From a virus, in IMG/VR virus record IMGVR_UViG_3300025430_000001, positions 1 to 59,503 of that record: a stretch of DNA of 59,503 bases, one strand, 5' to 3'. A program made the position numbers and the translations under genes. The notes under the pieces were generated by a model that had not been told where the DNA came from, did not search any database, and saw only the letters and a list, made by a program, of their open reading frames with translations. Shown piece by piece: positions 4,521 through 28,600 of this stretch (position 1 is the stretch's first letter; every line of letters starts with the position of its first letter).

Positions 4521-4597
<77 letters not shown>

Positions 4598-4604
4598 TCT
4601 ATTC

Positions 4605-4692
4605 GAAGAGGCTGCTCAGACGGCGGATGGGCACCGGACTGTAAATCCGGCACATAGAAACGGAGTTGGTTCGAATCCAACCCTCTTCACCA
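4605..4692 (+). tRNA. tRNA-Tyr (anticodon GTA)
   Basis: An 88-nt type II tRNA. Acceptor GAAGAGG/CCTCTTC, anticodon arm CCGGA-CTGTAAA-TCCGG (GTA at 4641-4643), long variable arm, T arm GTTGG-TTCGAAT-CCAAC, encoded CCA. The long variable arm fits bacterial tRNA-Tyr. Confidence 0.93.
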
Positions 4693-7068: not shown

Positions 7069-7244
7069 CACAACACCGATTTAACCATTTTGTGCATTGC
7101 CTTTGCTAATCGCTCAACGTGATCATTTTTCCATTTTAATTCTTCCCGCAACCGCTCAATTTCATCCGCAGCTTTTTCGCACAGGTTTTCCGCCTCATGC
7201 GGGTTATAAATAGATGCACTTCGCAACCGTTCAACAATATCCAT
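7068..7244 (-). CDS. MDIVERLR-family small coiled-coil protein (58 aa)
   Basis: MDIVERLRSASIYNPHEA..., then EKAADEIERLREELKWKNDH and a short tail ending KMVKSVL. It has both signature blocks at the usual spacing and TGATG overlaps at both ends. Confidence 0.8.
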   Translation of the reverse strand: MDIVERLRSASIYNPHEAENLCEKAADEIERLREELKWKNDHVERLAKAMHKMVKSVL

Positions 7245-7555
7245 CACTCACTCCCTTTCGCTCTTTTCCATTTAGGAAGCCCAATTTCTTCTGGCGATAA
7301 CCCATAAATGTAACCTATGACATACCACTGCTTTCCGCCATCCAGCTCAGCCATTAATGTTACAAAATCATCGTAACCATGTTCCGCATACCAAGGATCA
7401 TAACTGGTGCTGAAACGATGAAATGCGTTTCCCCAGCGTTTGTCAGTCCATTGTTTAATGAACCCCACATTCATTAGGTCTTCAAGCGTTTCGAACTCCG
7501 CTTCTTTGGGGTCAATAGAGACGTAATTCGGAAGATGTTGTTTAATGATAGCCAT
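7244..7555 (-). CDS. Hypothetical protein within the coiled-coil array
   Basis: A 103-aa protein, MAIIKQHLPNYVSIDPKE..., with aromatic-rich WYAEHGYDDFVTLM and WYVIGYIYGLSPEEIGLP. It lacks the MDIVERLR and EIERLR blocks. No family recognised. TGATG overlaps on both sides. Confidence 0.75.
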   Translation of the reverse strand: MAIIKQHLPNYVSIDPKEAEFETLEDLMNVGFIKQWTDKRWGNAFHRFSTSYDPWYAEHGYDDFVTLMAELDGGKQWYVIGYIYGLSPEEIGLPKWKRAKGSE

Positions 7556-7887
7556 CACTCACCTTCCTTCAGTGCGGCACGGGCCTTGTCCACTAAAACG
7601 ATATAACGCTTGATCAGTCCATATCGCACGTTTTCCACATCGCCAAAAATGCCAGAAATTTGGGCATCAGCAATTTCCTTCAACGCTTCCCGCATATTGT
7701 CATTTTCTTTGCAAACCTGTTTCCAATTTGCCTTTCCTATAATATCTTTCATAAATCGGTCAGCATCCATTTCGGTTATCTTTTTCCGCAACCGCTCAAT
7801 CTCATTGGCGGCCTCTTTAGCAATTTCCCAATCGCCCCAATAATCTTTTACAGATTCAAATTCCCGCAACCGTTCAACAATGTCCAT
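7555..7887 (-). CDS. MDIVERLR-family small coiled-coil protein (110 aa)
   Basis: MDIVERLREFESVKDYWG, then KEAANEIERLRKKITEMDAD, a middle insertion containing NWKQVCKENDNMREALKEIAD, and the end ARAALKEGE. Start at 7887 set by TGATG; an upstream in-frame GTG/ATG region is inside the previous gene. Confidence 0.8.
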   Translation of the reverse strand: MDIVERLREFESVKDYWGDWEIAKEAANEIERLRKKITEMDADRFMKDIIGKANWKQVCKENDNMREALKEIADAQISGIFGDVENVRYGLIKRYIVLVDKARAALKEGE

Positions 7888-8066
7888 CACTTCACCTTTA
7901 CACAAACATGCCTCGTTATTTTAGTTGTATTGATCGTAAGCACTTCTGCTTCCTTACCTGCAATTTCGCAGACCTCCTGATTTTGCATTGGTATAGTTGC
8001 CAATGTCACTGAATCGCCTTTTGCAAAAGGGCCAGCATAAATATAAAGAACCAAAATCCATTCCAT
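7887..8066 (-). CDS. Small exported or membrane-anchored protein (59 aa)
   Basis: MEWILVLYIYAGPFAKGDSV at the N-terminus is hydrophobic, like a signal anchor, followed by a polar domain with two cysteines (EVCEIAGKEAEVL..., HVCVKV). Proteins with this 'C.iAg...' arrangement recur in phages and may be periplasmic. Coupled by TGATG. Confidence 0.7.
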   Translation of the reverse strand: MEWILVLYIYAGPFAKGDSVTLATIPMQNQEVCEIAGKEAEVLTINTTKITRHVCVKVK

Positions 8067-8296
8067 CACTTTTTCTCCACTAGTGCTTTACGGGCTAATT
8101 TAATTGTGTGTGTTGTTTCTGGATTACCAAGATGGTTAATGTGCATGTATTCACATTTTTCATTTACCATTTCCCGTAACGCCTCCCGCAGCCGTTCAAT
8201 CTCTTTCACCATGTTGGCGCAATCAGTCATCATTACATAATTGATGCCGCCAATATGATGCATGTTAGGTGGATTAAAACGATCTATATATGCCAT
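8066..8296 (-). CDS. EIERLR-containing small protein (76 aa)
   Basis: MAYIDRFNPPNMHHIGGIN then MVKEIERLREALREMVNEKC and the end IKLARKALVEKK. It keeps the EIERLR heptad and ARKAL-type end but has replaced the MDIVERLR start, suggesting a diverged member of the array. TGATG start overlap. Confidence 0.75.
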   Translation of the reverse strand: MAYIDRFNPPNMHHIGGINYVMMTDCANMVKEIERLREALREMVNEKCEYMHINHLGNPETTHTIKLARKALVEKK

Positions 8297-8580
8297 CACT
8301 CATCCTCCTTCAGTGCGGCACGGGCGTCGTCAAGCCAATAAGGCTCTTTGTCGTGCCTTTCGCACCATGCAACAGCATCTTCCACAACAACCCGCAACCG
8401 TTCAATCTCATCGGCGGCATCGGTAATTGTTTTTGGCATGAGCCGTAACGCTCCCCGCAACCGTTCAATTTCGTCTAACAGCCCCCCGACAAGCACATCT
8501 GGATGCAAAGCAAAAATTGTTTTGTTCTCCATAGGTGGTCGCAGGGACAGGTATTTTTTTGCGTCATCTACAGCACTCAT
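8296..8580 (-). CDS. EIERLR-containing small protein with two copies (94 aa)
   Basis: Two EIERLR blocks (LLDEIERLRGALRLM and AADEIERLRVVVEDA) in one protein, with the shared end DDARAALKEDE and a WCERHDKEPYWL segment. This looks like an internal duplication or fusion of two array members. TGATG overlaps both sides. Confidence 0.78.
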   Translation of the reverse strand: MSAVDDAKKYLSLRPPMENKTIFALHPDVLVGGLLDEIERLRGALRLMPKTITDAADEIERLRVVVEDAVAWCERHDKEPYWLDDARAALKEDE

Positions 8581-8798
8581 CACTCACCCTCCTTCAGTGC
8601 GTCAGCAATTATCTTCAACAACGACTTTTTAATCACGGATTCAGTGGGTAACCATTGATTGATGCCCCTATCTAAATCGGTTAATGCTTTACGCAGCCGT
8701 TCAATCTCAACGTCTTTTCGTTCAATTTCATGCACCGCCCAAGCGTAGCATTCTTCTTGATCGGCGCGATCTTTCAAAACGTCCATATAACTTTCCAT
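8580..8798 (-). CDS. EIERLR-like small coiled-coil protein (72 aa)
   Basis: MESYMDVLKDRADQEECYA, then HEIERKDVEIERLRKALTDL and the end IIADALKEGE. First clear member of the array in transcription order. ATG 8798 overlaps the stop of the 37-aa gene as TGATG. Confidence 0.75.
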   Translation of the reverse strand: MESYMDVLKDRADQEECYAWAVHEIERKDVEIERLRKALTDLDRGINQWLPTESVIKKSLLKIIADALKEGE

Positions 8799-8911
8799 CA
8801 CCAAATCACCTCCCCATTAACGACAATATGCTCGTACCACCGGTGCCCCGTATCGTCCTCCCATAAGGCCCACACGTTGTCCGGTTCATATTCATATCTG
8901 ATCAGTGTCAT
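8798..8911 (-). CDS. Very small acidic/aromatic protein (37 aa)
   Basis: MTLIRYEYEPDNVWALWEDD then HRWYEHIVVNGEVIW. It overlaps the upstream gene by 20 nt and its TGA forms TGATG with the next ATG. The Trp/Tyr-rich composition and exact fit to the coupled array argue for coding; no family known. Confidence 0.6.
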   Translation of the reverse strand: MTLIRYEYEPDNVWALWEDDTGHRWYEHIVVNGEVIW

Positions 8912-12703: not shown

Positions 12704-12892
12704 TTATTCTTGGTTCCCAAACAAATATTTCACGAGCTTTTCATATGTCGTCATGTGCGGATTATTGTTTTTACCCGCAGCGATAGAGCGAATGGTATTC
12801 TCGTGTAGACCAGTAGAGACAGCAACCTTTGCGAGGTTGCGGTCATTGAGCGCCACCCTTATGCGCTCCATCGTGACATTGTTCAAATCCAT
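12704..12892 (-). CDS. HTH transcriptional regulator (62 aa)
   Basis: A Cro/XRE-type DNA-binding protein: VALNDRNLAKVAVSTGLHEN followed by TIRSIAAGKNNNPHMTTYEK is a classical helix-turn-helix with recognition helix. There is no dimerisation or cleavage domain, as in small Cro-like proteins. It is the first gene of the leftward early operon, beside an inverted repeat (12918-12956) that is its likely operator, so it probably controls both early directions and itself. Confidence 0.85.
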   Translation of the reverse strand: MDLNNVTMERIRVALNDRNLAKVAVSTGLHENTIRSIAAGKNNNPHMTTYEKLVKYLFGNQE

Positions 12893-12979
12893 TTTTTATG
12901 CCTCTTTCAATATTGTGGTGTTGACAATCACACAACCTGATGTCATTTGTCAACACGTTGAAACAGAGGAGATATGCCA
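12893..12979. promoter_or_regulatory. Divergent early control region with inverted repeat
   Basis: GTGTTGACAA (12918-12927) and TTGTCAACAC (12947-12956) form a perfect 10-bp inverted repeat separated by 19 nt; a smaller TGACA/TGTCA pair lies inside it. Each arm contains TTGACA on one strand, so two -35-like boxes point in opposite directions, but the matching -10 boxes are weak. The region separates the HTH gene from the Sak4-like gene and is the best candidate for the phage's early switch. Confidence 0.65.
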
Positions 12980-15013: not shown

Positions 15014-15612
15014 TGGAACAGCGATCCGAGGAATGGTTTAACATTCGAAAGGGCCGAGTGACCGGTTCAGCCGTTGGAGCAATCCTCGGTATCGCACCCT
15101 TTGCGAATCAAGCGGACATCTTGCGCCGCATGGTTCGTGATTGGCACAAGGCTCCCAGTGAGTTTACGGGAAACATAGCCACTAACTGGGGCGTACAGAA
15201 CGAGGCCGGTGCCCTTCTTGAATACGAGATGGTCACCGGCAACACGGTTGAACCGTGCGCCTTCTACCAATACGAGCACTGGCTCGGGGCCAGCCCCGAT
15301 GGACTGGTGGGCGATCGCGGACTGGTCGAGATCAAGTGCCCGTTTGGCATTCGGTATAAGAGACCGCCGGTATTCAAGACGGCAGCAATGCAGACCCACT
15401 ATTATGCGCAGATGCAGATACAGCTATTTGCCACGGACCGCGATTGGTGCGACTTCTACCAGTGGACGCCATACGGGGATGCGGTCGAGAGGATTGAGTT
15501 GGACAGGGCGTTTCTCAATACGATCCTGCCCGTTCTACGTAATTTTTATGAGAAATATTTGATCGAAAGAGAGCTTCCAAATGCAGAAAAATACCTTTCT
15601 GATCAAACGTGA
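15013..15612 (+). CDS. YqaJ/lambda-type exonuclease
   Basis: A 199-aa PD-(D/E)XK nuclease that would resect double-stranded ends to give ssDNA for the Sak4/SSB pair. Visible motifs: QRSEEWFNIRKGRVTGSAVG at the N-terminus, LGASPDGLVG (catalytic Asp), LVEIKCP (E-x-K) and YYAQMQIQL. Length is near that of YqaJ-type phage exonucleases. Translationally coupled to its upstream neighbour. Confidence 0.9.
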   Translation: MEQRSEEWFNIRKGRVTGSAVGAILGIAPFANQADILRRMVRDWHKAPSEFTGNIATNWGVQNEAGALLEYEMVTGNTVEPCAFYQYEHWLGASPDGLVGDRGLVEIKCPFGIRYKRPPVFKTAAMQTHYYAQMQIQLFATDRDWCDFYQWTPYGDAVERIELDRAFLNTILPVLRNFYEKYLIERELPNAEKYLSDQT

Positions 15613-15814
15613 ATTAAATGGTCTGACAAAATCACTAAATCCATGCCGTTTTTGTGGATCGGTAATGGGTCAATTGCATAATTCAACGCCACCGCATGGG
15701 CTTGCTGTTCGATGCGATGGGTGCGGTAAATTTTTAGGATGGCTTCAGAAAAACTATTCTGAACGGTTGAAGGCAGGGATGGGCATAGAAAATGGGCAAG
15801 CGAAGCAATTTTAA
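15581..15814 (+). CDS. Small zinc-ribbon protein
   Basis: A 77-aa protein with CRFCG and CDGCG pairs (about residues 22-25 and 45-48) flanking a GLAVR strand, a typical zinc ribbon followed by FLGWLQ. It overlaps the exonuclease gene by 32 nt and the methyltransferase gene by 23 nt. Similar short ribbons occur in many phage replication regions; function unknown. Confidence 0.75.
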   Translation: MQKNTFLIKRELNGLTKSLNPCRFCGSVMGQLHNSTPPHGLAVRCDGCGKFLGWLQKNYSERLKAGMGIENGQAKQF

Positions 15815-16310
15815 ACCGCACAAGCTTGATGCCTATGCGACACCGGAGGAAGCGGTTCTGCCGCTTCTTTCGCACCTACCAAAGGGTTCATATTATGCGG
15901 AGCCTTGCGCCGGTGATGGGGCTCTGATCCGCATCCTGCAAAAGCATGGCCACAAGTGCGTTGCCGCCTATGACGTTGAGCCTCGCCACAAGATCGTGAA
16001 ACAGGCAGATGCGTCATTTTTGACACGCGAAGACATGAACCGCGCCAACCTAGTGATTACAAACCCGCCTTGGGGCCGCGATGTGATGCACCAGATCATC
16101 GAGAGATCCTTGTTTTGGGGGCCGACATGGTTGCTGTTTGATGCGGATTGGATGCACACCAAGCAGGCCACGCCTTACCTGCCGCACTGCAAGAAGATTG
16201 TGTCGGTGGGGCGGGTGAAGTGGTTTGGGAATACGGCTGGCAAGGATAATTGCTGCTGGTACTTGTTTGATTTTAACGACCCGCAACCCACAATCTTCGT
16301 AGGACAGTGA
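15792..16310 (+). CDS. Phage DNA methyltransferase-like protein
   Basis: A 172-aa SAM-dependent methyltransferase-like fold. SAM-binding motif I is YYAEPCAGDGALI (near residue 36) and the catalytic NPPWG motif (near 92) is the kind used by N6-adenine enzymes. It is shorter than free-standing adenine methyltransferases and lacks an obvious target-recognition domain, so activity or specificity is uncertain. It may mark phage DNA against host nucleases. Confidence 0.78.
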   Translation: MGKRSNFKPHKLDAYATPEEAVLPLLSHLPKGSYYAEPCAGDGALIRILQKHGHKCVAAYDVEPRHKIVKQADASFLTREDMNRANLVITNPPWGRDVMHQIIERSLFWGPTWLLFDADWMHTKQATPYLPHCKKIVSVGRVKWFGNTAGKDNCCWYLFDFNDPQPTIFVGQ

Positions 16311-16726
16311 TGAGAGTTTTAATAGCATGTGAATACAGCGGCACCGTGCGCGATGCGTTTGTTGCCAAGGGGCATGATGCCATGTCGTGTGATCTGCTTC
16401 CGACCGACAAGGCTGGGCCGCATTATCAGGGTGATGTATTTGACATCATCGGCGACGGCTGGGATTTGATGATCGCGCACCCGCCATGCACGTATCTAAC
16501 CAATAGCGGCGTGACGTGGCTACACAAAGACCCTTCGAGATGGGCCAAGCTTGATGATGGCGCGGCATTCTTCAAAGCTTTGCTGAATGCTGACATCCCA
16601 ATGATCGCTGTCGAAAACCCCATTATGCACAAGTATGCCAAGGAACGCATTGGAGGGACCAGGCAGACGCAAGTTGTGCAGCCATGGATGTTTGGGCACT
16701 TAGAGCAGAAGGCGACCTGCCTGTAG
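16310..16726 (+). CDS. Cytosine-methyltransferase-like protein, truncated by amber codon
   Basis: MRVLIACEYSGTVRDAFVAK is the SAM-binding start, followed by DVFDIIGDGWDLMIAHPPCTYLT (PPC-type catalytic block) and IAVENPIMHKYA. This family resembles C5-cytosine methyltransferases without a target domain and is usually near 200 aa. Here TAG at 16724 replaces an expected Trp (the protein would read TCL-W-LKGLQPL) and leaves 138 aa. The same frame remains open to 16915. Start at 16310 by TGATG overlap. Confidence 0.8.
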   Translation: MRVLIACEYSGTVRDAFVAKGHDAMSCDLLPTDKAGPHYQGDVFDIIGDGWDLMIAHPPCTYLTNSGVTWLHKDPSRWAKLDDGAAFFKALLNADIPMIAVENPIMHKYAKERIGGTRQTQVVQPWMFGHLEQKATCL

Positions 16727-16915
16727 CTTAAGGGGCTGCAGCCATTGGTAGCGACAAACAACGTCAGGGATGAAATGATGGCGCTGCCTAAGAATCAGAG
16801 GGAGCGCTTACACTACCTGCCGCCATCAGCGGACCGGTGGAAGCTTCGCAGCACGACCTATCAAGGCATCGCTGATGCTATGGCAAAACAATGGGGCAAT
16901 AATGAATACCATTAA
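16727..16915 (+). pseudogene. 3' remainder of the methyltransferase-like gene after the amber stop
   Basis: In frame after TAG the sequence reads LKGLQPLVATNNVRDEMMAL, then RERLHYLPPSADRWKLRSTT and QGIADAMAKQWG, which are the C-terminal blocks expected of the family. No frameshift is present, so the only lesion is the stop. It may be a recent mutation, an assembly or population variant, or a read-through site. Confidence 0.75.
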
Positions 16916-17423
16916 ACTAACCAAGCCCGAACTCATGGTTGCCGGGCTTGTCGGCAACATGCGAAGCATATCGTCGCTTGGAAATCTCGTTCAAAACAAG
17001 CACTCGCCAACTGATTCGCAGTGGCAGATTGATGTCGATGGGGCAGCCGCCGAAATGGCCTTTGCGAAGTGGCTGGATGTCTACTACGAGCCATCGGTGA
17101 ATACATTCAAGGCACCGGATGTCGGGGTCATGCAGGTGCGATCCACCAAGCACGAGCATGGCAAGCTGATCATCCGGGCAAACGACAAGAAGGACGAGAT
17201 TGTCGTCCTTGTGATTAATCGCATGCCTACCTACACAATGGCCGGTTGGATACGAACCAACGAAGCCAAGCAGGACAAATACCTCTACGACCCCAATGGC
17301 AAGGGTGCACCGGCATGGATGGTGCCACAGATCAATCTAAATAAAATGGAAGATTTAAATGTTAAGACCCTATCAACAGACAGCGCACGACCAAATCATC
17401 CAGTGGGTGAAGAAAACGGCTGA
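16902..17423 (+). CDS. Phage protein, possible nuclease-like fold
   Basis: A 173-aa protein, MNTIKLTKPELMVAGLVGNM..., with WQIDVDGAAAEMAFAKWL, TFKAPDVGVMQVRSTKHEHG and IVVLVINRMPTYTMAGWI. The E-x(n)-D-V-G-x-x-V-R order hints at a PD-(D/E)XK-like core, but this is inference. ATG 16902 is chosen; the 5' end overlaps the broken methyltransferase frame by 14 nt. Its 3' end overlaps the helicase by 65 nt, and the last 20 residues look unlike the rest, as if an older stop was lost. Confidence 0.75.
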   Translation: MNTIKLTKPELMVAGLVGNMRSISSLGNLVQNKHSPTDSQWQIDVDGAAAEMAFAKWLDVYYEPSVNTFKAPDVGVMQVRSTKHEHGKLIIRANDKKDEIVVLVINRMPTYTMAGWIRTNEAKQDKYLYDPNGKGAPAWMVPQINLNKMEDLNVKTLSTDSARPNHPVGEENG

Positions 17424-19140
17424 ACCCTGCTGCATCGAGGCAGCGACGGGGGCAGGCAAGAGCCACATCATTGCGGCGATTGCTAACACCATCCACCGCA
17501 TATCTGGCGGCAAACACGTCCTATGCCTTGCGCCTAGCGCGGAGCTTGTCGTGCAGAATAGCGAAAAATACCGCGCGACCGGCAACCCCTGCTCAATCTT
17601 CTCGGCAAGCGCTGGGGCCAAGTCGCTAAAGCACCCAGTGGTATTTGGCACCCCTCTGACGGTAAAGAACCGCATCAGGCGCTTTGGCAGCCAATTCGGG
17701 ATGATCGTCATCGACGAGGCCCACGGGATCACGCCGACGATCCGCAACATCGTCAATGCCATTCGCGAACAGAATGCCAACATCCGCGTCGTGGGGATGA
17801 CTGCCACGCCCTATCGGATGGGGACTGGGTACATCTTCGGCCAGTGGCCAGATGGTAAGCCAGTCGGAGAACACGAAACCATCAATCCGTACTTCTCGGT
17901 CTGTGTGGACCGGATCACGGCTCAGGAGCTGATTGATCAGGGCTACCTGACAAAGCCGGTGATCGGGCAGATACACGCCGAATCATACCACACCCTCGAC
18001 ATGGAGCTGAATAGCCGCAATCAGTTCGACAGCGAGGACATCGACCGCGCCTTTATCGGCCAAGGCCGCAAGACGTCTGCAATCATCGCGGACGTGGTGG
18101 CGCAGGCCAGAGAACGCCAAGGGGTGATGGTCTTTGCCGCCACGGTGCAACATGCCCAAGAGTGCATGGAAAGCCTGCCACGGGGCTTGTCTGCCCTTGT
18201 GACGGGGAATACGCCCAGTCAGGAACGCGCCGCCATCATAGCGCGGTTCAAGGCCCAAGAGATCAAGTACCTTGTCAACGTGCAGGTGCTCACCACCGGC
18301 TTCGATGCCCCCCACGTCGATCTGATTGCAATCCTACGAGCGACAGAATCAGTTGGCCTGCTGCAGCAGATCATCGGTCGAGGCCTGCGCCTGTTCGAGG
18401 GTAAGGATGACTGCCTGATCCTAGATTATGCCGAGAACCTCGAGCGCCACTGCCCCGACGGTGACGTGTTTAACCCCTTGATCAAGACGGTAAAGGCAAA
18501 GGAAAACGCGCTTTACCTGAAGGTGCGCTGCCCATTATGCGAGGTGGAAAATGAATTTAAAGCCAGACCAAACCCATCGGGGTTCGAGATCAGCCCCTCT
18601 GGCTACTTTTGCGATCTCGATGGTATTACGATTGAAACCGAGCATGGCATGATTCCCGCCCATTACGGTCGGCGGTGCCAATCAAAGCAACTCGCAGCAG
18701 GACAATTGGTACAGTGCGGATCTCGTTGGACCACAAAGTCCTGCCCCCACTGTGAGGCGGACAACGACATCGCGGCAAGGTACTGCGCGGAGTGCAAGGG
18801 AGAGATTGTTGACCCTAACGAGAAGCTGATTGCTGAGTTTAACGCCATGAAGGCCGACCCCAACCGGCGGCAGACCGACGTCGTCGAGGAGTGGTCCGTA
18901 AACCACACGTTAAGCAAGGCCGGGCGCGAGATGTGGCGGGTCGATGTGCGGACATCCTATCGTAAATTCTCGTTCTGGGTGCCAAAAACACCAAACTGGT
19001 CGCAAGGCTTCAAAGATCGTGCTATGTTTACCGCATTGGGTGGCAAGCAACCCGACACCATTACCTATGAGAAGGATGGGCAGTGGTACAAGGTAACGGC
19101 CTACAATAGGAAGCCAGATGAAATTCCCGACCGGCATTGA
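17359..19140 (+). CDS. SF2 DEAD/DEAH helicase with zinc ribbons
   Basis: A 593-aa superfamily 2 helicase. Motif I EAATGAGKS (near 28), motif II VIDEAHG (near 116), motif III GMTATPYR (near 146), and motif VI QQIIGRGLR (near 340) are all present. After the helicase core come cysteine clusters, CPLCEVENEF and CPHCEADNDIAARYCAEC, likely zinc ribbons for DNA binding. It probably remodels replication forks or recombination intermediates. Followed directly by the VRR-NUC gene, a usual neighbour of such helicases in phages. Confidence 0.92.
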   Translation: MLRPYQQTAHDQIIQWVKKTAEPCCIEAATGAGKSHIIAAIANTIHRISGGKHVLCLAPSAELVVQNSEKYRATGNPCSIFSASAGAKSLKHPVVFGTPLTVKNRIRRFGSQFGMIVIDEAHGITPTIRNIVNAIREQNANIRVVGMTATPYRMGTGYIFGQWPDGKPVGEHETINPYFSVCVDRITAQELIDQGYLTKPVIGQIHAESYHTLDMELNSRNQFDSEDIDRAFIGQGRKTSAIIADVVAQARERQGVMVFAATVQHAQECMESLPRGLSALVTGNTPSQERAAIIARFKAQEIKYLVNVQVLTTGFDAPHVDLIAILRATESVGLLQQIIGRGLRLFEGKDDCLILDYAENLERHCPDGDVFNPLIKTVKAKENALYLKVRCPLCEVENEFKARPNPSGFEISPSGYFCDLDGITIETEHGMIPAHYGRRCQSKQLAAGQLVQCGSRWTTKSCPHCEADNDIAARYCAECKGEIVDPNEKLIAEFNAMKADPNRRQTDVVEEWSVNHTLSKAGREMWRVDVRTSYRKFSFWVPKTPNWSQGFKDRAMFTALGGKQPDTITYEKDGQWYKVTAYNRKPDEIPDRH

Positions 19141-19531
19141 CGTATATGGTGACAAATCATTTAGGGGAAAATGCGCCACCGAATCGCTAGAGCAGGTTAC
19201 ATTTTTTGCTAGGATGCGCCGTGATTATCCAAACTCATGGGGCAAAATTGCCTTCCATCCCCGCAACGAGGGTTTTAGGACGGCAATGAAGGTGAAGATT
19301 GAAAAGGCCGAAGGCATGGTGACCGGAACACCCGACATTATCATCCCCGGAAGCCCGACATTTGTATGCGAATTGAAGCGGCGGGACCACACCAAGTCCT
19401 CGCTACAAGATGGACAGAAGGATTACCTATATGCCGCCCAAGAAGCAGGGGGATTTGTTTGCATTGCCCTCGGCCACAAAGCGGCGCGGGAAGCATTCGG
19501 ACGATATCTGGAAATTCATTACGCGGCCTAG
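19118..19531 (+). CDS. VRR-NUC domain nuclease
   Basis: A 137-aa stand-alone VRR-NUC (PD-(D/E)XK) protein. The core GTPDIIIPG...FVCELKRRD gives the catalytic D and E-x-K residues, followed by Q..YLYAAQEAGGFVCIALG. Such proteins act on branched DNA or replication intermediates. It overlaps the helicase end by 23 nt. Confidence 0.87.
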   Translation: MKFPTGIDVYGDKSFRGKCATESLEQVTFFARMRRDYPNSWGKIAFHPRNEGFRTAMKVKIEKAEGMVTGTPDIIIPGSPTFVCELKRRDHTKSSLQDGQKDYLYAAQEAGGFVCIALGHKAAREAFGRYLEIHYAA

Positions 19532-19757
19532 CAAAATGATCGAAGATGTAATGATTGGTAAGGTCGCGTTGCAGGACCAGCCTGAAGGGATACAGTCCGC
19601 CTGCCGCTTGGCGATCTATGAACGTGCCTGCCGGATACTTAATCTGGAGACAAAGTTGGAACGCAGGGCCGAAATTGGTCGGACCCCTGATAAATTGCGG
19701 CCTCACATCGAGGCAGAGGTCATGAAGATATGGAGGACGAGAAGTGACGAATCATGA
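19431..19757 (+). CDS. Hypothetical protein overlapping VRR-NUC
   Basis: A 108-aa protein from ATG 19431 (MPPKKQGDLFALPSATKRRG...). The conserved-looking half is VALQDQPEGIQSACRLAIYE then RACRILNLETKLE, a pattern seen in other phage early proteins. AAGGA lies 8 nt before 19431, which supports this start and implies a 101-nt overlap with the nuclease gene. A start at 19536, just after the nuclease stop, lacks a ribosome site but cannot be excluded. Confidence 0.65.
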   Translation: MPPKKQGDLFALPSATKRRGKHSDDIWKFITRPSKMIEDVMIGKVALQDQPEGIQSACRLAIYERACRILNLETKLERRAEIGRTPDKLRPHIEAEVMKIWRTRSDES

Positions 19758-19851
19758 AATTGCAGAATGGATAGGATTGCTTTGGGCGCTTGGCATGCTA
19801 GGCTACATAATCCGTATCATCATGTGTGAGATAAAAAATGATCCGAATTGA
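19744..19851 (+). CDS. Single-TM micro-protein with GTG start (35 aa)
   Basis: MTNHEIAEWIGLLWALGMLG then YIIRIIMCEIKNDPN: one hydrophobic helix with a short charged tail. GGAGG sits 7 nt before the GTG, an unusually good site, and the frame overlaps both neighbours by 14 nt. Probably an inner-membrane peptide. Confidence 0.6.
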   Translation: MTNHEIAEWIGLLWALGMLGYIIRIIMCEIKNDPN

Positions 19852-20059
19852 CCCCCCATTGCCACTGGACACGCCAAAAGGCCCAGCGATGGCACATTTC
19901 CTAATCGATTACGGGTTCGAGCATCACCTCTCATGGGTTTGTTTCCAAGATGAAACAGGCGAGTGCTGGACTTGGACAAATCGGGATGTGCGGATGCAAG
20001 ATAATATTTCTGCAGGTCGTGCAAAAAAGTATTTGACACCTGAAAAGGACAGTGTATAA
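19838..20059 (+). CDS. 'LDTPKG..AHFLIDYG' phage protein (73 aa)
   Basis: MIRIDPPLPLDTPKGPAMAH with FLIDYGFEHHLSWVCFQDET and GECWTWTNRDVRMQDNISAG. This small protein type recurs in phages of several hosts; function unknown. Its 3' end carries a strong promoter for the next genes. Confidence 0.8.
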   Translation: MIRIDPPLPLDTPKGPAMAHFLIDYGFEHHLSWVCFQDETGECWTWTNRDVRMQDNISAGRAKKYLTPEKDSV

Positions 20060-20060
20060 C
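20033..20060 (+). promoter_or_regulatory. Sigma70-type promoter inside the early block
   Basis: TTGACA (20033-20038), a 16-nt spacer, then TATAAC (20055-20060). It overlaps the end of the preceding gene and lies 46 nt before the ATG at 20106. The -10 box is identical to that of the terS promoter. Confidence 0.75.
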
Positions 20061-20105
20061 AGGTTCATCAGCAACGAGCTGACGCAAATTTAAATGGAGA
20101 TGACC

Positions 20106-20393
20106 ATGACGAACCGCACCCTCGCCGACCGCTACTACGACATCGACGCACAGATCAAGGCTTTGGAAGTTGCCAAAGACGCCATCAAGGCTGAGATTAT
20201 CGCCCTTGGCACCGATCTTGTCGAAGGCGCAGAATACGACGTCAAGGTTTCACTTTCGCAGCGTTCCGTTCTCGATGAGGCTTTGCTTCTTGCAACCTAC
20301 GGTGTGACGCCAGAGCAGATGAAGCTCTATAATGCCTGCAAAAAAGATGGCAAGTGCTTCGAAGTTCTTAAAGTGGTTTCAAAGGGGGCATAA
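20106..20393 (+). CDS. Helical protein behind internal early promoter (95 aa)
   Basis: MTNRTLADRYYDIDAQIKAL then EVAKDAIKAEIIALG (a helical hairpin) and a C-terminal part with LLATYGVTPEQMKLYNACKK. The ATG at 20106 is chosen over 20094, since GGAG 5' of it is well spaced only for 20106. First gene after the promoter, so likely well expressed. No family named. Confidence 0.75.
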   Translation: MTNRTLADRYYDIDAQIKALEVAKDAIKAEIIALGTDLVEGAEYDVKVSLSQRSVLDEALLLATYGVTPEQMKLYNACKKDGKCFEVLKVVSKGA

Positions 20394-20399
20394 GCCCCC
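20384..20399 (+). terminator. Hairpin overlapping a stop codon (possible attenuator)
   Basis: GGGGGC-ATAA-GCCCCC, with the stop codon TAA of the 95-aa gene in the loop. There is no T run. It could limit transcription into the following genes or protect the upstream message. Confidence 0.4.
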
Positions 20400-20419
20400 A
20401 CCCTTGGGAGGATGAGTAA

Positions 20420-20764
20420 ATGGATAAGCAAGATATTATAGCCCTAGATGCCACCATGCTGATTGGAGAACTAGTCCAAGAGTATATCAACAATTTTAAA
20501 TTTGGGGATGAGCGAAAGAACGAAAAACTCATCAACGCTTCATATATTGAAGATCTTACAATGGATTGCATTAAAGATGCGATTTGGAAGATTATAAGTG
20601 TGATGAAAGATATTGAGTATGAAGCAACAAACTCAGTTGATGAATATGTTACCAGACGCAAAAGGATGGAACAGGTTAAATCTATTTTGTTAATTGGCCG
20701 ATCGCACCCAGATAGCGCAATCAAGCGTTTGAAGGGTTTAAAGCCAAAGTACGAGAAAGTATAA
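20420..20764 (+). CDS. Hypothetical helical protein (114 aa)
   Basis: MDKQDIIALDATMLIGELVQ... rich in Lys, Glu and Ile, likely all-helical; no motif. AT-rich codons compared with its neighbours. GGAGG precedes the ATG. Confidence 0.75.
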   Translation: MDKQDIIALDATMLIGELVQEYINNFKFGDERKNEKLINASYIEDLTMDCIKDAIWKIISVMKDIEYEATNSVDEYVTRRKRMEQVKSILLIGRSHPDSAIKRLKGLKPKYEKV

Positions 20765-20765
20765 A

Positions 20766-21038
20766 ATGCTAAAGACAATTATGGATGTCGTGTACCACTT
20801 GGGGCTTGGCTCATCAGCCAAGCTTCTTTGGATTCGGTTGTTTGATAGATATGGTTACGAGACATTCGCAGGCACCTATGAGGAAATGGCCGACGAAGTC
20901 CACAGCAAGCGTTATACCGTCCGCGCCCAGATCGCCGCGTTACGCGAGGTGGGTGCGATCGAGACCAGCAACCACTACGAGACTAGCAACGCAGGCAATG
21001 AGTTTCGCTTGCGCCCACCAAATGAATGGAAAAACTAA
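20766..21038 (+). CDS. Winged-helix DNA-binding protein (90 aa)
   Basis: LGSSAKLLWIRLFDRYGYET followed by GTYEEMADEVHSKRYTVRAQ and IAALREVGAIE is a helix-turn-helix with wing, like replication-initiator or helix-turn-helix domain proteins. It may bind an origin or promoter. Its stop overlaps the next start as TAATG. Confidence 0.78.
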   Translation: MLKTIMDVVYHLGLGSSAKLLWIRLFDRYGYETFAGTYEEMADEVHSKRYTVRAQIAALREVGAIETSNHYETSNAGNEFRLRPPNEWKN

Positions 21039-21424
21039 TGCCAAATATGTTGGATTATGAACGCCTTGTACGGCAAGTTGCCGACCTAAGCGTTGAGAAT
21101 GCTAGGCTTAAGGGCCACCATCGCAACGGGGAGGATGATCGTTGGAACACTATCGAGGAGCAAGCACTAGTTGGTACATTGGCGGAAGAACGCCGCCTTC
21201 GTCGAATTATTCGCGACTGGGAAGAGCGTTACGATATCTTGTGCGAATTGTTTATGCGCCGCGATCGGGACAGGGCCAACTTGAATTGGCACGACGCCAA
21301 GACGGACTTGGAGATACGTCGCCGGAAGCAAGCGGAAGCGCAAGCGAAGACCGAGAAGCGGCTTATGTGGCTGCGGATCGTTTATACGAAGATCATGAAT
21401 TTAATCACAAAGAGGGTAAAATGA
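21038..21424 (+). CDS. Coiled-coil protein (128 aa)
   Basis: MPNMLDYERLVRQVADLSVE... then long Arg/Glu-rich helices (LAEERRLRRIIRDWEERYDI, RRKQAEAQAKTEKRLM). Predicted coiled coil throughout; function unknown. TAATG at the start and ATGA at the end. Confidence 0.75.
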   Translation: MPNMLDYERLVRQVADLSVENARLKGHHRNGEDDRWNTIEEQALVGTLAEERRLRRIIRDWEERYDILCELFMRRDRDRANLNWHDAKTDLEIRRRKQAEAQAKTEKRLMWLRIVYTKIMNLITKRVK

Positions 21425-21717
21425 GTAATTTACTAAACACACGCGAGAAGACCCACGGGAACTACCGCGACAACGCCAACCTTAGCCAAGCCATTAAAGA
21501 CGTGCTGCGGAGCGGCAAGAACTGGGAACGCCTGAGCGATGGCCAGAAGGAGGCTTTGGAAATGATTTCAGTCAAGCTTTCCCGTCTTCTTAACGGCGAC
21601 AAGGACTTCCGCGATCATTGGGACGACATTGAGGGATATGCCAAACTGGGCGGCCAAGCCAGTCCCACCAATCTGCCAACCGTAACTTTAGATTTAACAA
21701 AGGCGATGGAAGGATGA
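21421..21717 (+). CDS. DUF6378-like protein (98 aa)
   Basis: MSNLLNTREKTHGNYRDNAN, then WERLSDGQKEALEMISVKLS and DFRDHWDDIEGYAKL. These blocks match the DUF6378 type, common in phage early regions and reminiscent of MazG-like folds; function unknown. ATG at 21421 by ATGA overlap; a longer frame upstream is the shadow of the coiled-coil gene. Confidence 0.82.
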   Translation: MSNLLNTREKTHGNYRDNANLSQAIKDVLRSGKNWERLSDGQKEALEMISVKLSRLLNGDKDFRDHWDDIEGYAKLGGQASPTNLPTVTLDLTKAMEG

Positions 21718-21911
21718 GCAAGTTTCGGATGTACGTGGCAACAACAATCTTTTTAGTATTAACCAGCTACTGGTGTGCTAATGCCCTAAATGATTCGGTT
21801 GCATCTAATGCCACAACCATATGGCTTGCAATGTGGTGTTTTTTCAGTGGTATCTTGGGTTTGTTTGCAGGCTTCAGTGCCATCATGGAGCTAGAAGACC
21901 ATGTGCGTTAG
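21714..21911 (+). CDS. Two-TM membrane protein (65 aa)
   Basis: Hydrophobic segments at about residues 5-25 (MYVATTIFLVLTSYWCANAL) and 36-57 (IWLAMWCFFSGILGLFAGFS), with a short acidic end. Likely inner membrane; role unknown. ATGA overlap with the preceding gene. Confidence 0.72.
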   Translation: MSKFRMYVATTIFLVLTSYWCANALNDSVASNATTIWLAMWCFFSGILGLFAGFSAIMELEDHVR

Positions 21912-21924
21912 GGGAGCGCCTGAG

Positions 21925-22332
21925 ATGACGGGATATCGCAGCAAGAAGATGATGTCAGATGTTCGTTGGTTGGGGCCGTACGCCCCAGCCGACCGCCATG
22001 CCGATGATATTACCATTGCCCATGTTGTGGAGCTTCGTAAGAAATTGGCAGATGCAGAACGCCACCGAGACAATGCTTTAGAAGGATTAATGGCCCTTAA
22101 AAAAGAAAGGGACCAATTTAGGGATGCTTTAATTAATATCCAATTTGAATATAATCGTTGGAAAACTAAGGCATCATCTCACTTTATTGGTTCTATTGCA
22201 AAAGAAGCATTAAAAGACATTCCAGATGGGAAACGCGCCCCAACTATTAAGGAGCATCGCCCAACGATAGAGGAAAGTTTTAGAATGCGCCAAATAGAAT
22301 TAGCAGAAAGAGCCGCCAATGCCCCGCGCTGA
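21925..22332 (+). CDS. Coiled-coil protein (135 aa)
   Basis: MTGYRSKKMMSDVRWLGPYA, then a long helix VVELRKKLADAERHRDNALE followed by LMALKKERDQFRDALINIQ. GGGGAG before ATG 21925 supports this start over the one at 21901. No family recognised; similar in style to the leftward coiled-coil proteins but without their signature. Confidence 0.72.
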   Translation: MTGYRSKKMMSDVRWLGPYAPADRHADDITIAHVVELRKKLADAERHRDNALEGLMALKKERDQFRDALINIQFEYNRWKTKASSHFIGSIAKEALKDIPDGKRAPTIKEHRPTIEESFRMRQIELAERAANAPR

Positions 22333-22603
22333 TCGTTTCCCGAAGCACTTCGACCATGCCTTGCGCTGCCGTGAGCAGAACCTTCCCGACACTGCGGACT
22401 TCATCCACAAGATTGGGAAGGCTTCCGACGAATATAAACGGGCATTGGTGTTTTGCATTAATGTTATGGAAGAGTATAAATCAGACCTAACACGTCCGAA
22501 AAGTGCGCGGCCAAAGGGTGATCTTACGCCATTCATGCTGGGTGCCTTGGACAAAGCCCGTGAGACTTTGAGGGATTATGATCATGACGTGGTTCCAGAT
22601 TAG
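22319..22603 (+). CDS. Hypothetical protein (94 aa)
   Basis: MPRADRFPKHFDHALRCREQ... with DEYKRALVFCINVMEEYKSD. Helical and basic; no family. Overlaps both neighbours, consistent with the operon. Confidence 0.72.
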   Translation: MPRADRFPKHFDHALRCREQNLPDTADFIHKIGKASDEYKRALVFCINVMEEYKSDLTRPKSARPKGDLTPFMLGALDKARETLRDYDHDVVPD

Positions 22604-22778
22604 AGGCGAACGCCGCGACTTTATGCGCCAGCCATCTATCATTATCGACAACGATATGACAAAAGAAGAAGCAGATCGTATGTTGATCGAGTTGAAATCC
22701 GAGATGCCCCTTTGGGACTTCTTTATGGAAGAGCAGGAATTCGTAGATGGAAAAATACAAGAGGGTCTTCGTACCTAA
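22584..22778 (+). CDS. Small hypothetical protein (64 aa)
   Basis: MTWFQIRGERRDFMRQPSII then MTKEEADRMLIELKSEMPLW. The start could also be 22578, two codons earlier. The IIIDNDMTKEEAD segment is like short phage proteins of unknown role. Confidence 0.68.
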   Translation: MTWFQIRGERRDFMRQPSIIIDNDMTKEEADRMLIELKSEMPLWDFFMEEQEFVDGKIQEGLRT

Positions 22779-23088
22779 CCCAAGCTTTCGGTTTGACCCA
22801 ACCGAGCTAAATACCCTCGCCGAATCGGTCGTCTATGTCAGCGACCTTCCCATGTTTGACAACCTGATTGGCGATGAAAACATTCATCGCTTCGAACACA
22901 AGGTTGCAGAACGGATGACCGACTTCGACCCGGCAGCCGATATCATCGCCTACTACGGCGACAGCATGATCTTTGCCATTATGGTGATGTACCTATGCGA
23001 CAACCACGATGGGTTCGACGTGGCGCGGTATTCGTCGAAGCTCGGCGGGTACGTCATCCGCGAACTGGCCTACGATAAATTCGTGTAA
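22747..23088 (+). CDS. Last gene of the rightward operon (113 aa)
   Basis: MEKYKRVFVPNPSFRFDPTE... containing YGDSMIFAIMVMYLCDNHDG and DVARYSSKLGGYVIRELAYD, a conserved-looking core seen in other phage early regions. Function unknown. The bidirectional terminator begins right after its stop. Confidence 0.78.
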   Translation: MEKYKRVFVPNPSFRFDPTELNTLAESVVYVSDLPMFDNLIGDENIHRFEHKVAERMTDFDPAADIIAYYGDSMIFAIMVMYLCDNHDGFDVARYSSKLGGYVIRELAYDKFV

Positions 23089-23123
23089 TAAAAAAGCCCG
23101 GCTTGCACCGGGCTTCTTTTTTA
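23089..23123. terminator. Bidirectional rho-independent terminator
   Basis: AGCCCGG (23095-23101) pairs with CCGGGCT (23108-23114) around a 6-nt loop, with A-rich flanks giving T runs on both strands. It ends both the rightward early operon and the leftward late operon, where they converge. Confidence 0.93.
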
Positions 23124-23291
23124 TTCTGCGACCTGTGCCGCTGTCGTTGCCGCCTCGACTTGCGGCTTGGCCTGCGAATGAAGCATCGCGATCACTTCTG
23201 AAACCTCTTCATAGGCACCCTTCGCAAGGTGCTTTAGGATGGCATTGACGTGCGCCACGGTGAGCTTCAGTTCTACTTCTAAATTGTCCAT
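23121..23291 (-). CDS. MDNLE-family small protein, copy 2 (56 aa)
   Basis: MDNLEVELKLTVAHVNAILK then HLAKGAYEEVSEVIAMLHSQ and AKPQVEAA. It is a clear paralogue of the 63-aa protein at 34400-34591. Its ATG overlaps the stop of the ejection protein as TAATG, and its stop lies in the flank of the terminator. Last gene of the late operon. Function unknown; the fold is probably a helical pair. Confidence 0.8.
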   Translation of the reverse strand: MDNLEVELKLTVAHVNAILKHLAKGAYEEVSEVIAMLHSQAKPQVEAATTAAQVAE

Positions 23292-25603
23292 TAGATACCC
23301 CTGTTTGCGATTTCCAGCGCCTTGGCGATGGTTGTATCATCCACGTTAAGCAGTGGCTTCGTGCCCTTGCCCTCGTCCTTCTTAATACGATCCACCATGG
23401 CAATCAACTGGTCAGCCTTGGCTTTTGCAGCGCCAGTTGTTCGACCGCCACTCTTGCGCCCAATGCGACCGCCAGAGGCCTGACCACTGGAAAATAAATA
23501 TGGTGGAACCTGCTGTAAGCCCTTCATAATGGCATATTGACCACCAGCCTTTACAGCTCCTGCTCCCAATGGATTAATGGCTTGCGCCCCAATGAGGGGT
23601 GCGCTTTTTTGAAGGGCTTGACCCACAATCTTTTGACCAGTCGTTGGTGTGTATTTTGACAATGGCTTGGCAATGTTACGGGCACTTAAATTGCCCAAAA
23701 CACTGGCCGCACCGGCTGTCCCAAGCGTCTTTATTGGAAGGCCGCCAAGGATCAATGATTCGGCAGCACCGGCACCCAATTCGCCTAAAAGGCCTTTTTT
23801 ATTACCAAGGCCTCCGCTTGATTTTTTTGCCAATTCGTCGATGTGATTGCCGACAACATTATTGCCGCTAGGCAAATTGCCAAAGGTTTCTACCTTGTTT
23901 AAAGTTTGGCGAAGATCATTCGATGCTCCACCACCAAACAGCAAACTTTTCCCTTGAGGATGAAGGTCTGTGCCGTATTTTCTGCTTAAATTGTTGAATG
24001 AAAAATTGCCATTTGGGGCAATATTTTTTGCAACATATGTCTGTCCGACCTTATCCCATGTGGACGGATCGTACTTGCTCAGTACGTTTTGCAGGTTTGC
24101 AGCATCGGTAAAGTTTGGCCCAGATGTGTTTTTTAAGGCTGCAGATTCGATGCCTTTATAAATTTGGTCACCGGTTTTTGCTCTAGCACCATTGACGTCT
24201 GGATTGCCAGTTATGCGAAGTACGCTTGACCGCAGCTTGTAGAGGTCGGCTGCATCGGCGTTTGCAGCGTTAAAAGCCGCAGTCCCCTCTTCGCCACCGA
24301 GAGAGCCTGCCGCGCCGCGCATGTCTTCTGTTACAGAACCATATAGCCTCTTAAGGATGCTTTCATCCAAATTTTGGCCGCTTGGTCCTCGATTAAAGTC
24401 AATGCCCTTTGCAATGAACCTGCGAAGATTATGCATGTCTTCAAATGACAGGCCGTTTGGAACCGATTCGGCCTTAGCAATAATTGCCAATGTAGGCTCT
24501 ACATCGGAAATTGCAGCCATCGATGAATTGCGGACTGCATCAGCAGCAGCCTGCATATTCGTCATATTAAACCTAGCTGGATTTGATCTAAATTCTTCAA
24601 CTGGCTTAAAAGCATTGTTTAAAGCAGATTCAAAGCCATGTGGGCTTTGGTCGTCCTTTGCCCAGTTTCCAATGGTATTTCGGATTGCTTCGCCTGTGTC
24701 ATTGGTGTTTGCATCGCCAGCGATATCCGCAAGCTTCCCGCCAATTTCGTTTACAGTCTTGTTTGAAGCGTTTGCCATAGAGCTACGCAAGTCAAGATTT
24801 GAAGCAAATGCAGATGGGTTGCTATCAGACGCAACGAATGCCGGAACACTAAAGCCCACATCATCGCCGATTGCACCTGCGATATGACCCTTTGAAATGC
24901 CATTATTAAGCGCCTGTGAGACCTGATCGGAAAATTCAGGTGCGATCTTAGCCCCGAGTGCGCCAATGCCCTTGCCTGCCGCTCCTAGAAGCATAGGGGC
25001 CACTTTTGCCCCTGCTGCCCCTGCGATGGCACCGCTAACCTTATCACCCAGCGTATCGCCTTCTGAAGAACCGTAAACAGCACCTTGGGCAAGTGGATTT
25101 TCCAATACGCTTGCGGCCTCGCCAGCCAGACCAGCCCCACCAGTTAGGGAGCGTAGGCCTGCACCAGCTAAACTTCCAATGTTGCCAGACTCTGCCAATA
25201 AGCCAGCACCGCCTGCTGCGGCGGCCTCCTCTGGGCCAGCAAGGACAGCGTTAGCAGCAGCCGGGATTGCCGCAGCAGCCATGCCTGTTCCATAAAGCCA
25301 TGGGTGTTGATTCCAAGCTTCCTCATTGGATGATTTTTGTTTGGCAAGCTCGTTCAGGTATTCTGGGTCATTGCTACCGGGCATGTGCCCCGACTCTATG
25401 GCTGCAATTAGTTGCGGAGAATACCCAAGCGCGAAAGCATTCGCCGCGCCGCGCCCGAATGATTCCAAGCTCCCAACATCAGGCTTTGCCTTTTGGGTTG
25501 GCTTAAAGTCAGCTCCAACTTCGCCGACAGGTTTAAAGCCTGTGGCCTCCTCATCAGCAGGGCCAATGGGGTTAAAATCATGCAGAACCTCAGGATCAGC
25601 CAT
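23291..25603 (-). CDS. DNA ejection (internal virion) protein, 770 aa
   Basis: MADPEVLHDFNPIGPADEEA..., Ala/Gly-rich hydrophobic stretches at about residues 110-200 (GMAAAAIPAAANAVLAGPEE) and long helices, the composition of podovirus proteins that enter the cell with the DNA and may form a membrane conduit. Near the end are ASGGRIGRKSGGRTTGAAK and then ADQLIAMVDRIKKDEGKG and PLLNVDDTTIAKALEIANR, a C-terminal module that I associate with alphaproteobacterial phage/prophage transfer proteins. ATG 25603 by TAATG overlap. Confidence 0.78.
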   Translation of the reverse strand: MADPEVLHDFNPIGPADEEATGFKPVGEVGADFKPTQKAKPDVGSLESFGRGAANAFALGYSPQLIAAIESGHMPGSNDPEYLNELAKQKSSNEEAWNQHPWLYGTGMAAAAIPAAANAVLAGPEEAAAAGGAGLLAESGNIGSLAGAGLRSLTGGAGLAGEAASVLENPLAQGAVYGSSEGDTLGDKVSGAIAGAAGAKVAPMLLGAAGKGIGALGAKIAPEFSDQVSQALNNGISKGHIAGAIGDDVGFSVPAFVASDSNPSAFASNLDLRSSMANASNKTVNEIGGKLADIAGDANTNDTGEAIRNTIGNWAKDDQSPHGFESALNNAFKPVEEFRSNPARFNMTNMQAAADAVRNSSMAAISDVEPTLAIIAKAESVPNGLSFEDMHNLRRFIAKGIDFNRGPSGQNLDESILKRLYGSVTEDMRGAAGSLGGEEGTAAFNAANADAADLYKLRSSVLRITGNPDVNGARAKTGDQIYKGIESAALKNTSGPNFTDAANLQNVLSKYDPSTWDKVGQTYVAKNIAPNGNFSFNNLSRKYGTDLHPQGKSLLFGGGASNDLRQTLNKVETFGNLPSGNNVVGNHIDELAKKSSGGLGNKKGLLGELGAGAAESLILGGLPIKTLGTAGAASVLGNLSARNIAKPLSKYTPTTGQKIVGQALQKSAPLIGAQAINPLGAGAVKAGGQYAIMKGLQQVPPYLFSSGQASGGRIGRKSGGRTTGAAKAKADQLIAMVDRIKKDEGKGTKPLLNVDDTTIAKALEIANRGI

Positions 25604-28600
25604 TATTGCACCTTTATGTACTTGGAGCCATCCCAACGGGCTTTATTGCCATTGGCGTCTTGGTAGACTTTACCCGCCTCTGGCGTGATATTTCCTGTCA
25701 TGCCAGCACCGGGCTTCATTGCAGCCTCAGTTTGGTTGACAAACTTTTCATAGTCGTTTTCAGGAGCCGACAAGAATTTATTTTGATATCCTTGGACATC
25801 ATAATTCTGCTCTTCGGGCTTGTAACCCATATTCATTTTGTCTTGATAATTGACCGATGCCTTTGCACGAGAAATAATATGATGGACAGCGCCGGGCTCC
25901 ATGTTTGGATTGGCAATTTGCCGCTGCAATGCTTCGAGTTCAGCCTTCGGCGCACCGGCAGGCAAGCCAGCCAATTGGGCCGTCATAAGAGATGCTGCAC
26001 CCTTCAGTGCGCTTTGATAGTTTGAAGCATCAGCATCATGAAGCGATGGGTAATTTCCTTGAGGATCAAGGGCCGTCATAAGCTGCTGGAATGATGCTCG
26101 TGCGGTGTCAGCACCAGACCTAAATTGGGAATAGACATTCTCCAAATCGGTCAGGTTTTGCTTAATGTTAGGTGCAGCCCGATTGAACGAGATCGCTTGA
26201 TTAACGAAGTCGCCAGATTGCGCCATACGTTGCCCAGCCAGTGTGGATTGTTGCCCAGCACTAATCGCACCGGGGGCGTTTACAGTTTCGCCAGCGACAT
26301 TCTGTGTCCTTTGATTGGCAACAATTTGATCAAGGTTATGCTGCGCTGATTCAACAGCACCCTTCATATAGAGTGACTGAATGCCTGCGTTTTTGGCAAT
26401 AAAGGCTCTAAGGTACCCTTGATCGTTCATGGCCGGAATATTTACGCCATTGCGGTTGATGCTAAGACTATTCATTTCTGGAATTGAATAGCTAAAGCCT
26501 TGCCCAGAAGGCTGCGCAGAACTCGTGTCTTGAATGCCTTCAGGCAATGCTCCCTTATACCCTGAAACCCGTGCGTATTCTTGCAGGGATACCGGAGGAA
26601 GGCCCGATGCAGAACGTGTGGCATTGTATTCGACAAGACCGCTTTGAAGCTGGTTGGCGACAGCAATGTTGCGGCTCTGTGCAATTGGCTGATCCAATTG
26701 GCGCTGCATCAAATTGTTTTGCACGTCTTCATAAGCCTTAGCGCCGCCACCAATGCCTTGAAGAATGGCAGCACCAAGATACCGGCTATTTGAGCCAGCC
26801 ATCGTACCAAGACCTGCCAAAAGCGGAATAAGGTACTGCTCACTGGTAAGCGCATCGCCGATACCCTTAAGCGGGGATGGCTTCTGCGCTGCACTATCTG
26901 GTGCTTGGAAGCCCGGCTGATCGCTAACTACTGCGGCTGGTGCGGCATTCGGCGCTGGACGATCCGCAAGGCCTGCCCATGTCGGGGAAAGCGCCGCCTT
27001 CATTTCTGGCGTAACACCGTTGCTTTGAAGGTCAGCATCCAGATCGCGTCCGGTACGCTTATTGTAATCTTGCGACGCAAGCTTAATTGCTGCTGCATCT
27101 TGATTTTTAGGGGTCATTGGCGCGTTGCCAGTTGTCCGATCCCATGTGTCCTTGACAAATTGGTAAGCGCCCGTAGCGGTGCTCGTGCCATCTGGCCCAA
27201 CAACTCCGGGATGTGGCGCATTAAGGTCAACTCGACCCTTGCCGCCATTTTGAATGTCGTATTGACCGCCGCTTTCTGGCTGCTTAATCGCAGAAAGTAA
27301 TGGCTTCCAATGCTGAGGAACCGCACTCGTGAAACCATCATTCGATGTGTCAAAACTATCATCTGCAGAAGCGACAACGCCACCTGCTGGAGCAGACCCA
27401 GCATCGCCACCATCAGCATGATGCTCACGACCGGCGACGCCGCCATCCTTCAGCGCAAGAGTAAAAGGCCCAAGTGATGAAAGGAAGCTGCCGATGCCAC
27501 TTGCTGCGGCTCCGACGCCAGAACCAATGGTAGAAGCCATCGTTCCGAGGCCAGAAATCTCGCCGGGGATAGCCGCAATCTTGCTAAGGTCACCCAACGT
27601 GCTTGATGGCTGCCCAGTAGGATTTTGAGCCGTCATAAGGCCATGCTGGCCTTTGTCTTTTTCGGTGTCCGAAACCACTTGCGACATTGGATCGTCGGTC
27701 TGGTAAGGCTCGACGCCGCCACCGTCTGCATAACCGACAACGCCGCCGTGGGCCTGCCCTTGTGGCAAATACTGCTTTAAAAGATCGCCAAAACCATACA
27801 TTCCGGTTGAAGGCTGCGCGGCAACTGCGGCCTGCGCTGGCGTATCCCCACTGGCCGGAACAGCGGCCTTGGCGGCTTGCGCAGGCTGACCAACGATGTC
27901 CTTGCGATATTCGTTTGCCTTTTTAATGGTATCGCCAATATTCATGGCACCCTGCACGTCACCCATAAGCGTGTCGCCCTGCTGCGCACGAGCAGGATTG
28001 GCAATGCCTAAATGAGCGACTGGGAGATTTGCCGCTGGAACAACGCCCTTGCCACCCGGCGTACCGGCTGGGGAGCCGCCATAAATTCCACTCTTTGTGA
28101 AGGGGGCATAGGACTGCTGCTGCGACGCCAGAATAGCCGATAGATCATATGGCGATACGACATCGCCGCCGTTAAAATAACCTTCTGCGGCATGCTGCGG
28201 GGATACGACACCACCCTCAGAGTTTGCGGCACCCCCAAACGCCCGATGCACCGGCTCCGAAGCTTGTTCATAATTAACGGTCTTAAAGCCATTCGATTCA
28301 CCAACTGCCTCTGGATGAACCTTTTCAACGTCCTGAGCCATATAACCGGTATGGGTCTGCTCAGTGTCATCTCCCTTGTACTTAAAGGTATAGATCGGCA
28401 GGCCGTTCTTGGCCGTGCCAACGCGCTTGATGTCTTCTTTAAGCCGTGCATCTGATGAGAACCATGACTGCGGTGCCGTCGTAGTCGTGGTCGAGCCAGA
28501 CAGAGCGCCGGTGCCTTCCGCGATGTTCGCGAGGAACTGCGATACTTGGAATGGATAGGCCTGCTGCTGCTGGAACTGATTGTACAGTGCCGACTGTCCA

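Follow-up and report, generated by a model that had tools for sequence, protein, structure and literature searches.

Why does a methyltransferase-like gene of a phage carry an amber codon within its reading frame? The question arises from a phage whose genome (59,503 bases, hereafter the window) makes up the whole virus record and has an exact repeat of 127 bases at both ends, as in a circularised assembly. A sequence-only reading had pointed to a TAG in place of an expected tryptophan codon at 16724–16726, had ascribed it to a single G to A change (TGG to TAG) and had suggested either a fresh loss of a DNA-modification gene or a strain variant.

The interrupted gene

Starting with an ATG at 16310, the gene with its interrupting TAG spans 16310–16915 (Table 1). 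Past the stop the frame remains open for 62 sense codons (16727–16912), not for the 63 counted before, and is closed by a TAA at 16913–16915. The 5′ half matches the family phrog_757, labelled as DNA methyltransferase in PHROGs v4, at profile positions 14–163 of 247 (E 1.3e-39) and the 3′ half at positions 176–221 of 247 (E 1.3e-10), in agreement with the earlier description of the residues behind the stop as typical of the family. Because both halves match at consecutive profile positions, the region is best read as one split gene and not as a chance open frame. Another PHROG family, phrog_27471, covers the C-terminal part alone, and searches with the gene against Pfam and NCBIfam yielded no family. 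The members of phrog_757 (e.g. Arthrobacter phage Anjali gene 1, Burkholderia phage Bcep1-12) share a sequence family with the window over the whole gene. However, the window copy ends at codon 139, a position at which none of the other 79 viral loci compared has a stop.

Table 1 Features of the window around the interrupted gene and its tRNA genes
Feature	Position	Strand	Remarks
tRNA-Pro(TGG) and tRNA-Tyr(GTA)	4521..4692	+	Neither an amber suppressor by anticodon
MT1, phrog_799 methyltransferase	15792..16310	+	Left flank of the slot
Optional cassette holding the methyltransferase gene	16310..16901	+	Missing, with clean junctions, from 11 of the 13 relatives spanning the slot
phrog_757 cytosine-5 methyltransferase-like gene, N-terminal 138 codons	16310..16723	+	Profile match; contains HPPC and ENP
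In-frame TAG, codon 139	16724..16726	+	TGG in 79 of 80 viral relatives
C-terminal 62 codons and TAA, cut off	16727..16915	+	Still matches phrog_757 and phrog_27471
phrog_18407, function unknown	16902..17423	+	Flanks the slot on the right; its ATG lies in the 3′ end of the broken gene

Codon 139 in the relatives

A comparison with relatives had been proposed for this site by the sequence-only reading. For this comparison the viral loci (the best 80 of 597 matches) were retrieved with the part of the gene before the stop only, so that codon 139 was unable to bias the choice; the cellular set consists of the best 80 of 337 matches. TGG at codon 139, followed by the rest of the gene in frame, is present in 79 of these 80 viral loci, and the sole TAG is that of a second virus record (L003). 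The cellular loci have tryptophan (74), tyrosine (3) or phenylalanine (3) at the site, and no stop occurs in any of their 80 aligned stretches. Both counts include duplicate contigs; after removal of identical gene sequences, 122 TGG and one TAG are found among 123 viral sequences, and 73 TGG, three TTT, two TAT and one TAC among 79 cellular ones. One further set of loci was chosen by a pattern in which codon 139 had to read TRG; the unbiased counts are those of the 80-locus sets. Furthermore, the alignment column at the site is tryptophan in 58 of 58 proteins. The amber codon thus stands in place of a tryptophan codon, and the proposed change of a single G to A fits the TGG carried by the near relatives.

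The genetic code and the tRNAs

That the phage reads TAG as sense is hardly conceivable, even though TAG ends only two of the 62 called genes. The TAG stops cited before at 19529, 21909 and 22601 are all present. The frame past the first of them contains many stops, both in the window and in relatives, and the endolysin gene (33518–34075, minus strand) ends in TAG, as had been noted, with the endolysin match ending close to it. Moreover, the genes are open without reading TAG, and across the genome an in-frame TAG within a conserved gene was found in this gene only. A tRNA with the anticodon CTA was searched for in the window and none was found, the only tRNAs being those for proline (TGG) and tyrosine (GTA); the earlier remark that no such tRNA is convincing agrees with this. 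A hint of recoding to glutamine, namely that three relatives at a greater distance carry CAG or GAG where the window has the TAG at 19529, was considered and rejected, as the frame ends within a few codons there and the downstream frame of the window is full of stops. For the same reasons the TAG at 19529 is a true stop. TAG acts as a normal stop in this phage, which shows no sign of recoding, in line with the earlier statement, and the amber at codon 139 is an isolated event. An in-frame TAG inside a conserved gene is a feature shared with TAG-recoded phages, of which phAss-1 (PMC10607447) is an example. In contrast to recoding of that type, the window has one such gene, TAG stops elsewhere and no suppressor tRNA.

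Read-through or suppression of the stop in the host, for example by the near-cognate tRNA-Tyr(GTA) encoded by the phage, would yield some full-length enzyme. Since tyrosine or phenylalanine occupies the site in 6 of the 80 cellular homologues (best 80 of 337), suppression of the stop could yield a working full-length enzyme that has a different aromatic residue there. However, the anticodon of the phage tRNA-Tyr is GTA and not CTA, and no read-through amber is found in other genes. In addition, the sister genome L257, which is devoid of the methyltransferase gene, carries the same pair of tRNAs, so that the pair is not kept for this stop. Read-through is thus very unlikely to explain the TAG. 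There is likewise a very slim chance that the amber is leaky in the natural host, where a near-cognate tRNA, perhaps the phage tRNA-Tyr, would insert a tolerated aromatic residue; the dose of methyltransferase would then be low, and the DNA mark would be tuned down rather than lost outright.

Fold of the intact protein and probable effect of the truncation

Natural unbroken proteins were aligned (58 sequences), and the first of them, a protein of 196 residues from the contig L004, was modelled (pLDDT 94.5). The closest solved fold is the catalytic domain of DNMT3B (Z 12.8, rmsd 3.6, 185 aligned residues). The model matches also the catalytic domain of DNMT3A, M.HhaI (Z 12.3, rmsd 3.5, 187 residues aligned over M.HhaI 12–319) and M.HaeIII (Z 11.8). 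Searching the PDB sequences with the alignment brought up no useful match (best E 1.8). Cys60 of the HPPC motif and Glu102-Asn103 of the ENP motif are invariant in all 58 proteins, and both motifs lie within the 138-codon part of the window. We take PPC/PCQ to be the motif of the catalytic cysteine and the ENV-like sequence to be the glutamate motif of cytosine-5 enzymes. The intact relative thus shares with DNMT3A/3B, M.HhaI and M.HaeIII the cysteine in PPC, the glutamate in ENP and, as judged from the model (Z 12.8–11.8), a class I methyltransferase fold of the cytosine-5 DNA type.

The relative differs from these enzymes in size, as its 196 residues compare with 277 in the DNMT3B chain and 327 in M.HhaI. 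About 120 residues of the aligned span of M.HhaI are without counterpart in the L004 protein; these probably correspond to its target recognition domain. The phage protein would thus probably be without most of such a domain. Literature searches for phage methyltransferases without a recognition domain and for orphan methyltransferase pseudogenes, as well as on methyltransferase gain in phage populations and on recoded phages, found no matching case among the papers listed.

In the model, the tryptophan of the site lies in a strand formed by residues 136–141, which is followed by five helices. The TAG would accordingly cut the last strand of the core, and everything downstream, the C-terminal helices included, would be lost. 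Because of the position of the stop in the last core strand and the loss of these helices, the product of 138 residues is probably inactive.

Split cytosine-5 enzymes exist, e.g. M.AquI, and the two halves might in the same way form a two-subunit methyltransferase, the second subunit being made by re-initiation past the stop. In-frame ATG codons are present 3′ of the TAG, and a PHROG family that spans the C-terminal part only would suit such an arrangement. On the other hand, the stop lies inside a core strand of the model and not at a domain boundary, and the gene is split at this site in none of the other 79 viral loci. A tradition of split genes was suspected from two phage records that listed two proteins under the match; it was discarded, as both records and that of Arthrobacter phage Anjali, the three named records inspected, have one unsplit gene, which overlaps its upstream neighbour by a few bases. 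A split enzyme is therefore highly improbable.

The optional slot

The place of the gene between its neighbours was compared in 81 loci, 80 of which were found with the neighbouring Sak4-like annealing protein (the contig L002 included), the remaining one being L003. Both flanking genes are present in 13 of the 81 loci. In 11 of these 13 there is no gene between the flanks, which meet in a stop/start overlap or within 1–2 bases of it. One of the empty slots is that of L257, whose sequence on either side agrees with the window to 98–99% over long stretches. The slot of the close relative L264 (3495–4448) holds a gene of 318 codons that matches Pfam N6_N4_Mtase (E 3.2e-51) and marks a site of methyltransferase exchange, with an N6/N4 type replacing the cytosine-5 type. 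L003 has the broken gene as in the window, and L002 has the intact gene up to the end of its contig.

As 11 of 13 slots are empty and one holds an unrelated methyltransferase, the gene is best described as an optional cassette that is absent, present or swapped for another methyltransferase. In that it is cleanly present or absent between two conserved neighbours and replaced in L264, it resembles the optional, moron-like cassettes of other phages. Unlike in these, the gene carried by the window is broken by a nonsense mutation. In the 20 kb compared of the 29.9-kb contig L004, the methyltransferase gene (88% over 588 bases) is the sole stretch that matches the window; a horizontal movement of the gene is suggested by this sharing of one gene alone. 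The family, the swap with another methyltransferase and the general knowledge of phage methyltransferases suggest that the intact enzyme may protect the phage DNA from restriction.

Two observations concern the surroundings of the slot. The protein of the right flank (phrog_18407, 16902–17423) shows a D...VRSTK pattern that resembles, by eye, a PD-(D/E)xK nuclease. In addition, a segment of 198 bases (15594–15791) is present in the window and missing from L002, L257 and others; it adds an ORF of 77 aa (15581–15814) with four cysteines spaced like those of a zinc finger.

Age of the stop codon

L003 (IMGVR_UViG_3300025648_000218) is identical to the window over 16204–28722 (12,519 of 12,519 bases), the TAG included; both records may stem from related samples and hence may be non-independent. 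The sister contig L002 (IMGVR_UViG_3300032579_001078) has TGG at codon 139. Over 597 bases of the gene, L002 and the window differ in two codons, which are the stop and codon 118 (Lys in L002, Arg in the window), and in zero synonymous changes, whereas 27 of 172 codons differ in the adjoining upstream gene, 25 of the 27 synonymously. Since 28 differences fall in 15792–16263 and 2 in 16264–16906, the methyltransferase gene evidently lies in a stretch that was recently exchanged and is common to the window and L002. The TAG would have arisen after this exchange. With TGG in L002 and one other differing site in 597 comparable bases, the stop appears to be very young, and presumably too recent for any selection test on the second half of the gene. 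The proposal of the sequence-only reading, namely that a DNA-modification gene has been freshly lost or varies between strains, fits these data best.

The main rival is that the stop is a consensus error of assembly or sequencing and that the gene is intact in the phage. A sister contig has TGG, and one base separates the TAG from a sense codon; nevertheless, the TAG recurs in the second record, whose 12,519 bases all agree with the window. An assembly that is error-prone in general was considered as well and rejected, as the comparison with L257 revealed no further broken gene among those listed. The search for stop-free matches in L257 took 44 genes, i.e. 43 of the 62 called genes (one with a different start) and 19118–19531; a stop-free match was found for 43 of the 44 and none for 6572–6829. 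In the reverse direction, with a gene list compiled by hand, 28 ORFs of L257 showed a stop or were covered only in part in the window. Of these, 22 are confined to shadow frames of listed genes. Two share the frame of a listed gene and are stop-free (the gene that wraps around the record end and a diverged gene at 23291), and the remaining four have no overlap with listed genes; among the latter is an ORF of 80 aa (12707–12946) with a stop in the window. An error of the consensus is thus unlikely.

Some other regions of the window deserve mention. The fibre-like protein (25603–29259, minus strand) is only 49% identical to that of L257, whereas the replication genes of L257 are 94 to 100% identical; this divergence possibly reflects host-range mosaicism. 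On the same strand, a run of small overlapping ORFs (6318–8804) constitutes a tandem family of small proteins, several of which begin with MDIVERLR and contain the motif EAADEIERLR. A protein of 1335 aa (52555–56562, minus strand) matches with its residues 37–151 a stretch of Tunturiibacter phage Tunturi_5 (53.8%) that is annotated as ADP-ribosyltransferase.

Meaning of the broken gene

The TAG is very probably explained by a nonsense mutation that recently arose in a phage methyltransferase gene which is dispensable, mobile and swappable. The strain would have recently acquired this optional gene, which encodes a compact cytosine-5 DNA methyltransferase, and a single G to A change would then have turned its conserved tryptophan codon into an amber stop. 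Ribosomes would release a fragment of 138 residues, which breaks off within the last strand of the catalytic core and is without the C-terminal helices. As this fragment is probably unstable or inactive, the strain would make no such DNA mark, and the activity may be regarded as lost in the window strain. Such a loss would be tolerated because the gene is dispensable, the slot being empty in most close relatives and filled with a different methyltransferase in one.

The stop itself is ordinary, and the locus should be annotated as a disrupted gene and not as a case of recoding. The phage population is seen with the slot in three states, namely empty, filled with the cytosine-5 methyltransferase in intact or broken form, or occupied by an N6/N4 methyltransferase unrelated to it. 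These three states would fit a short-lived selection by host restriction, under which DNA marks may be quickly gained and dropped.
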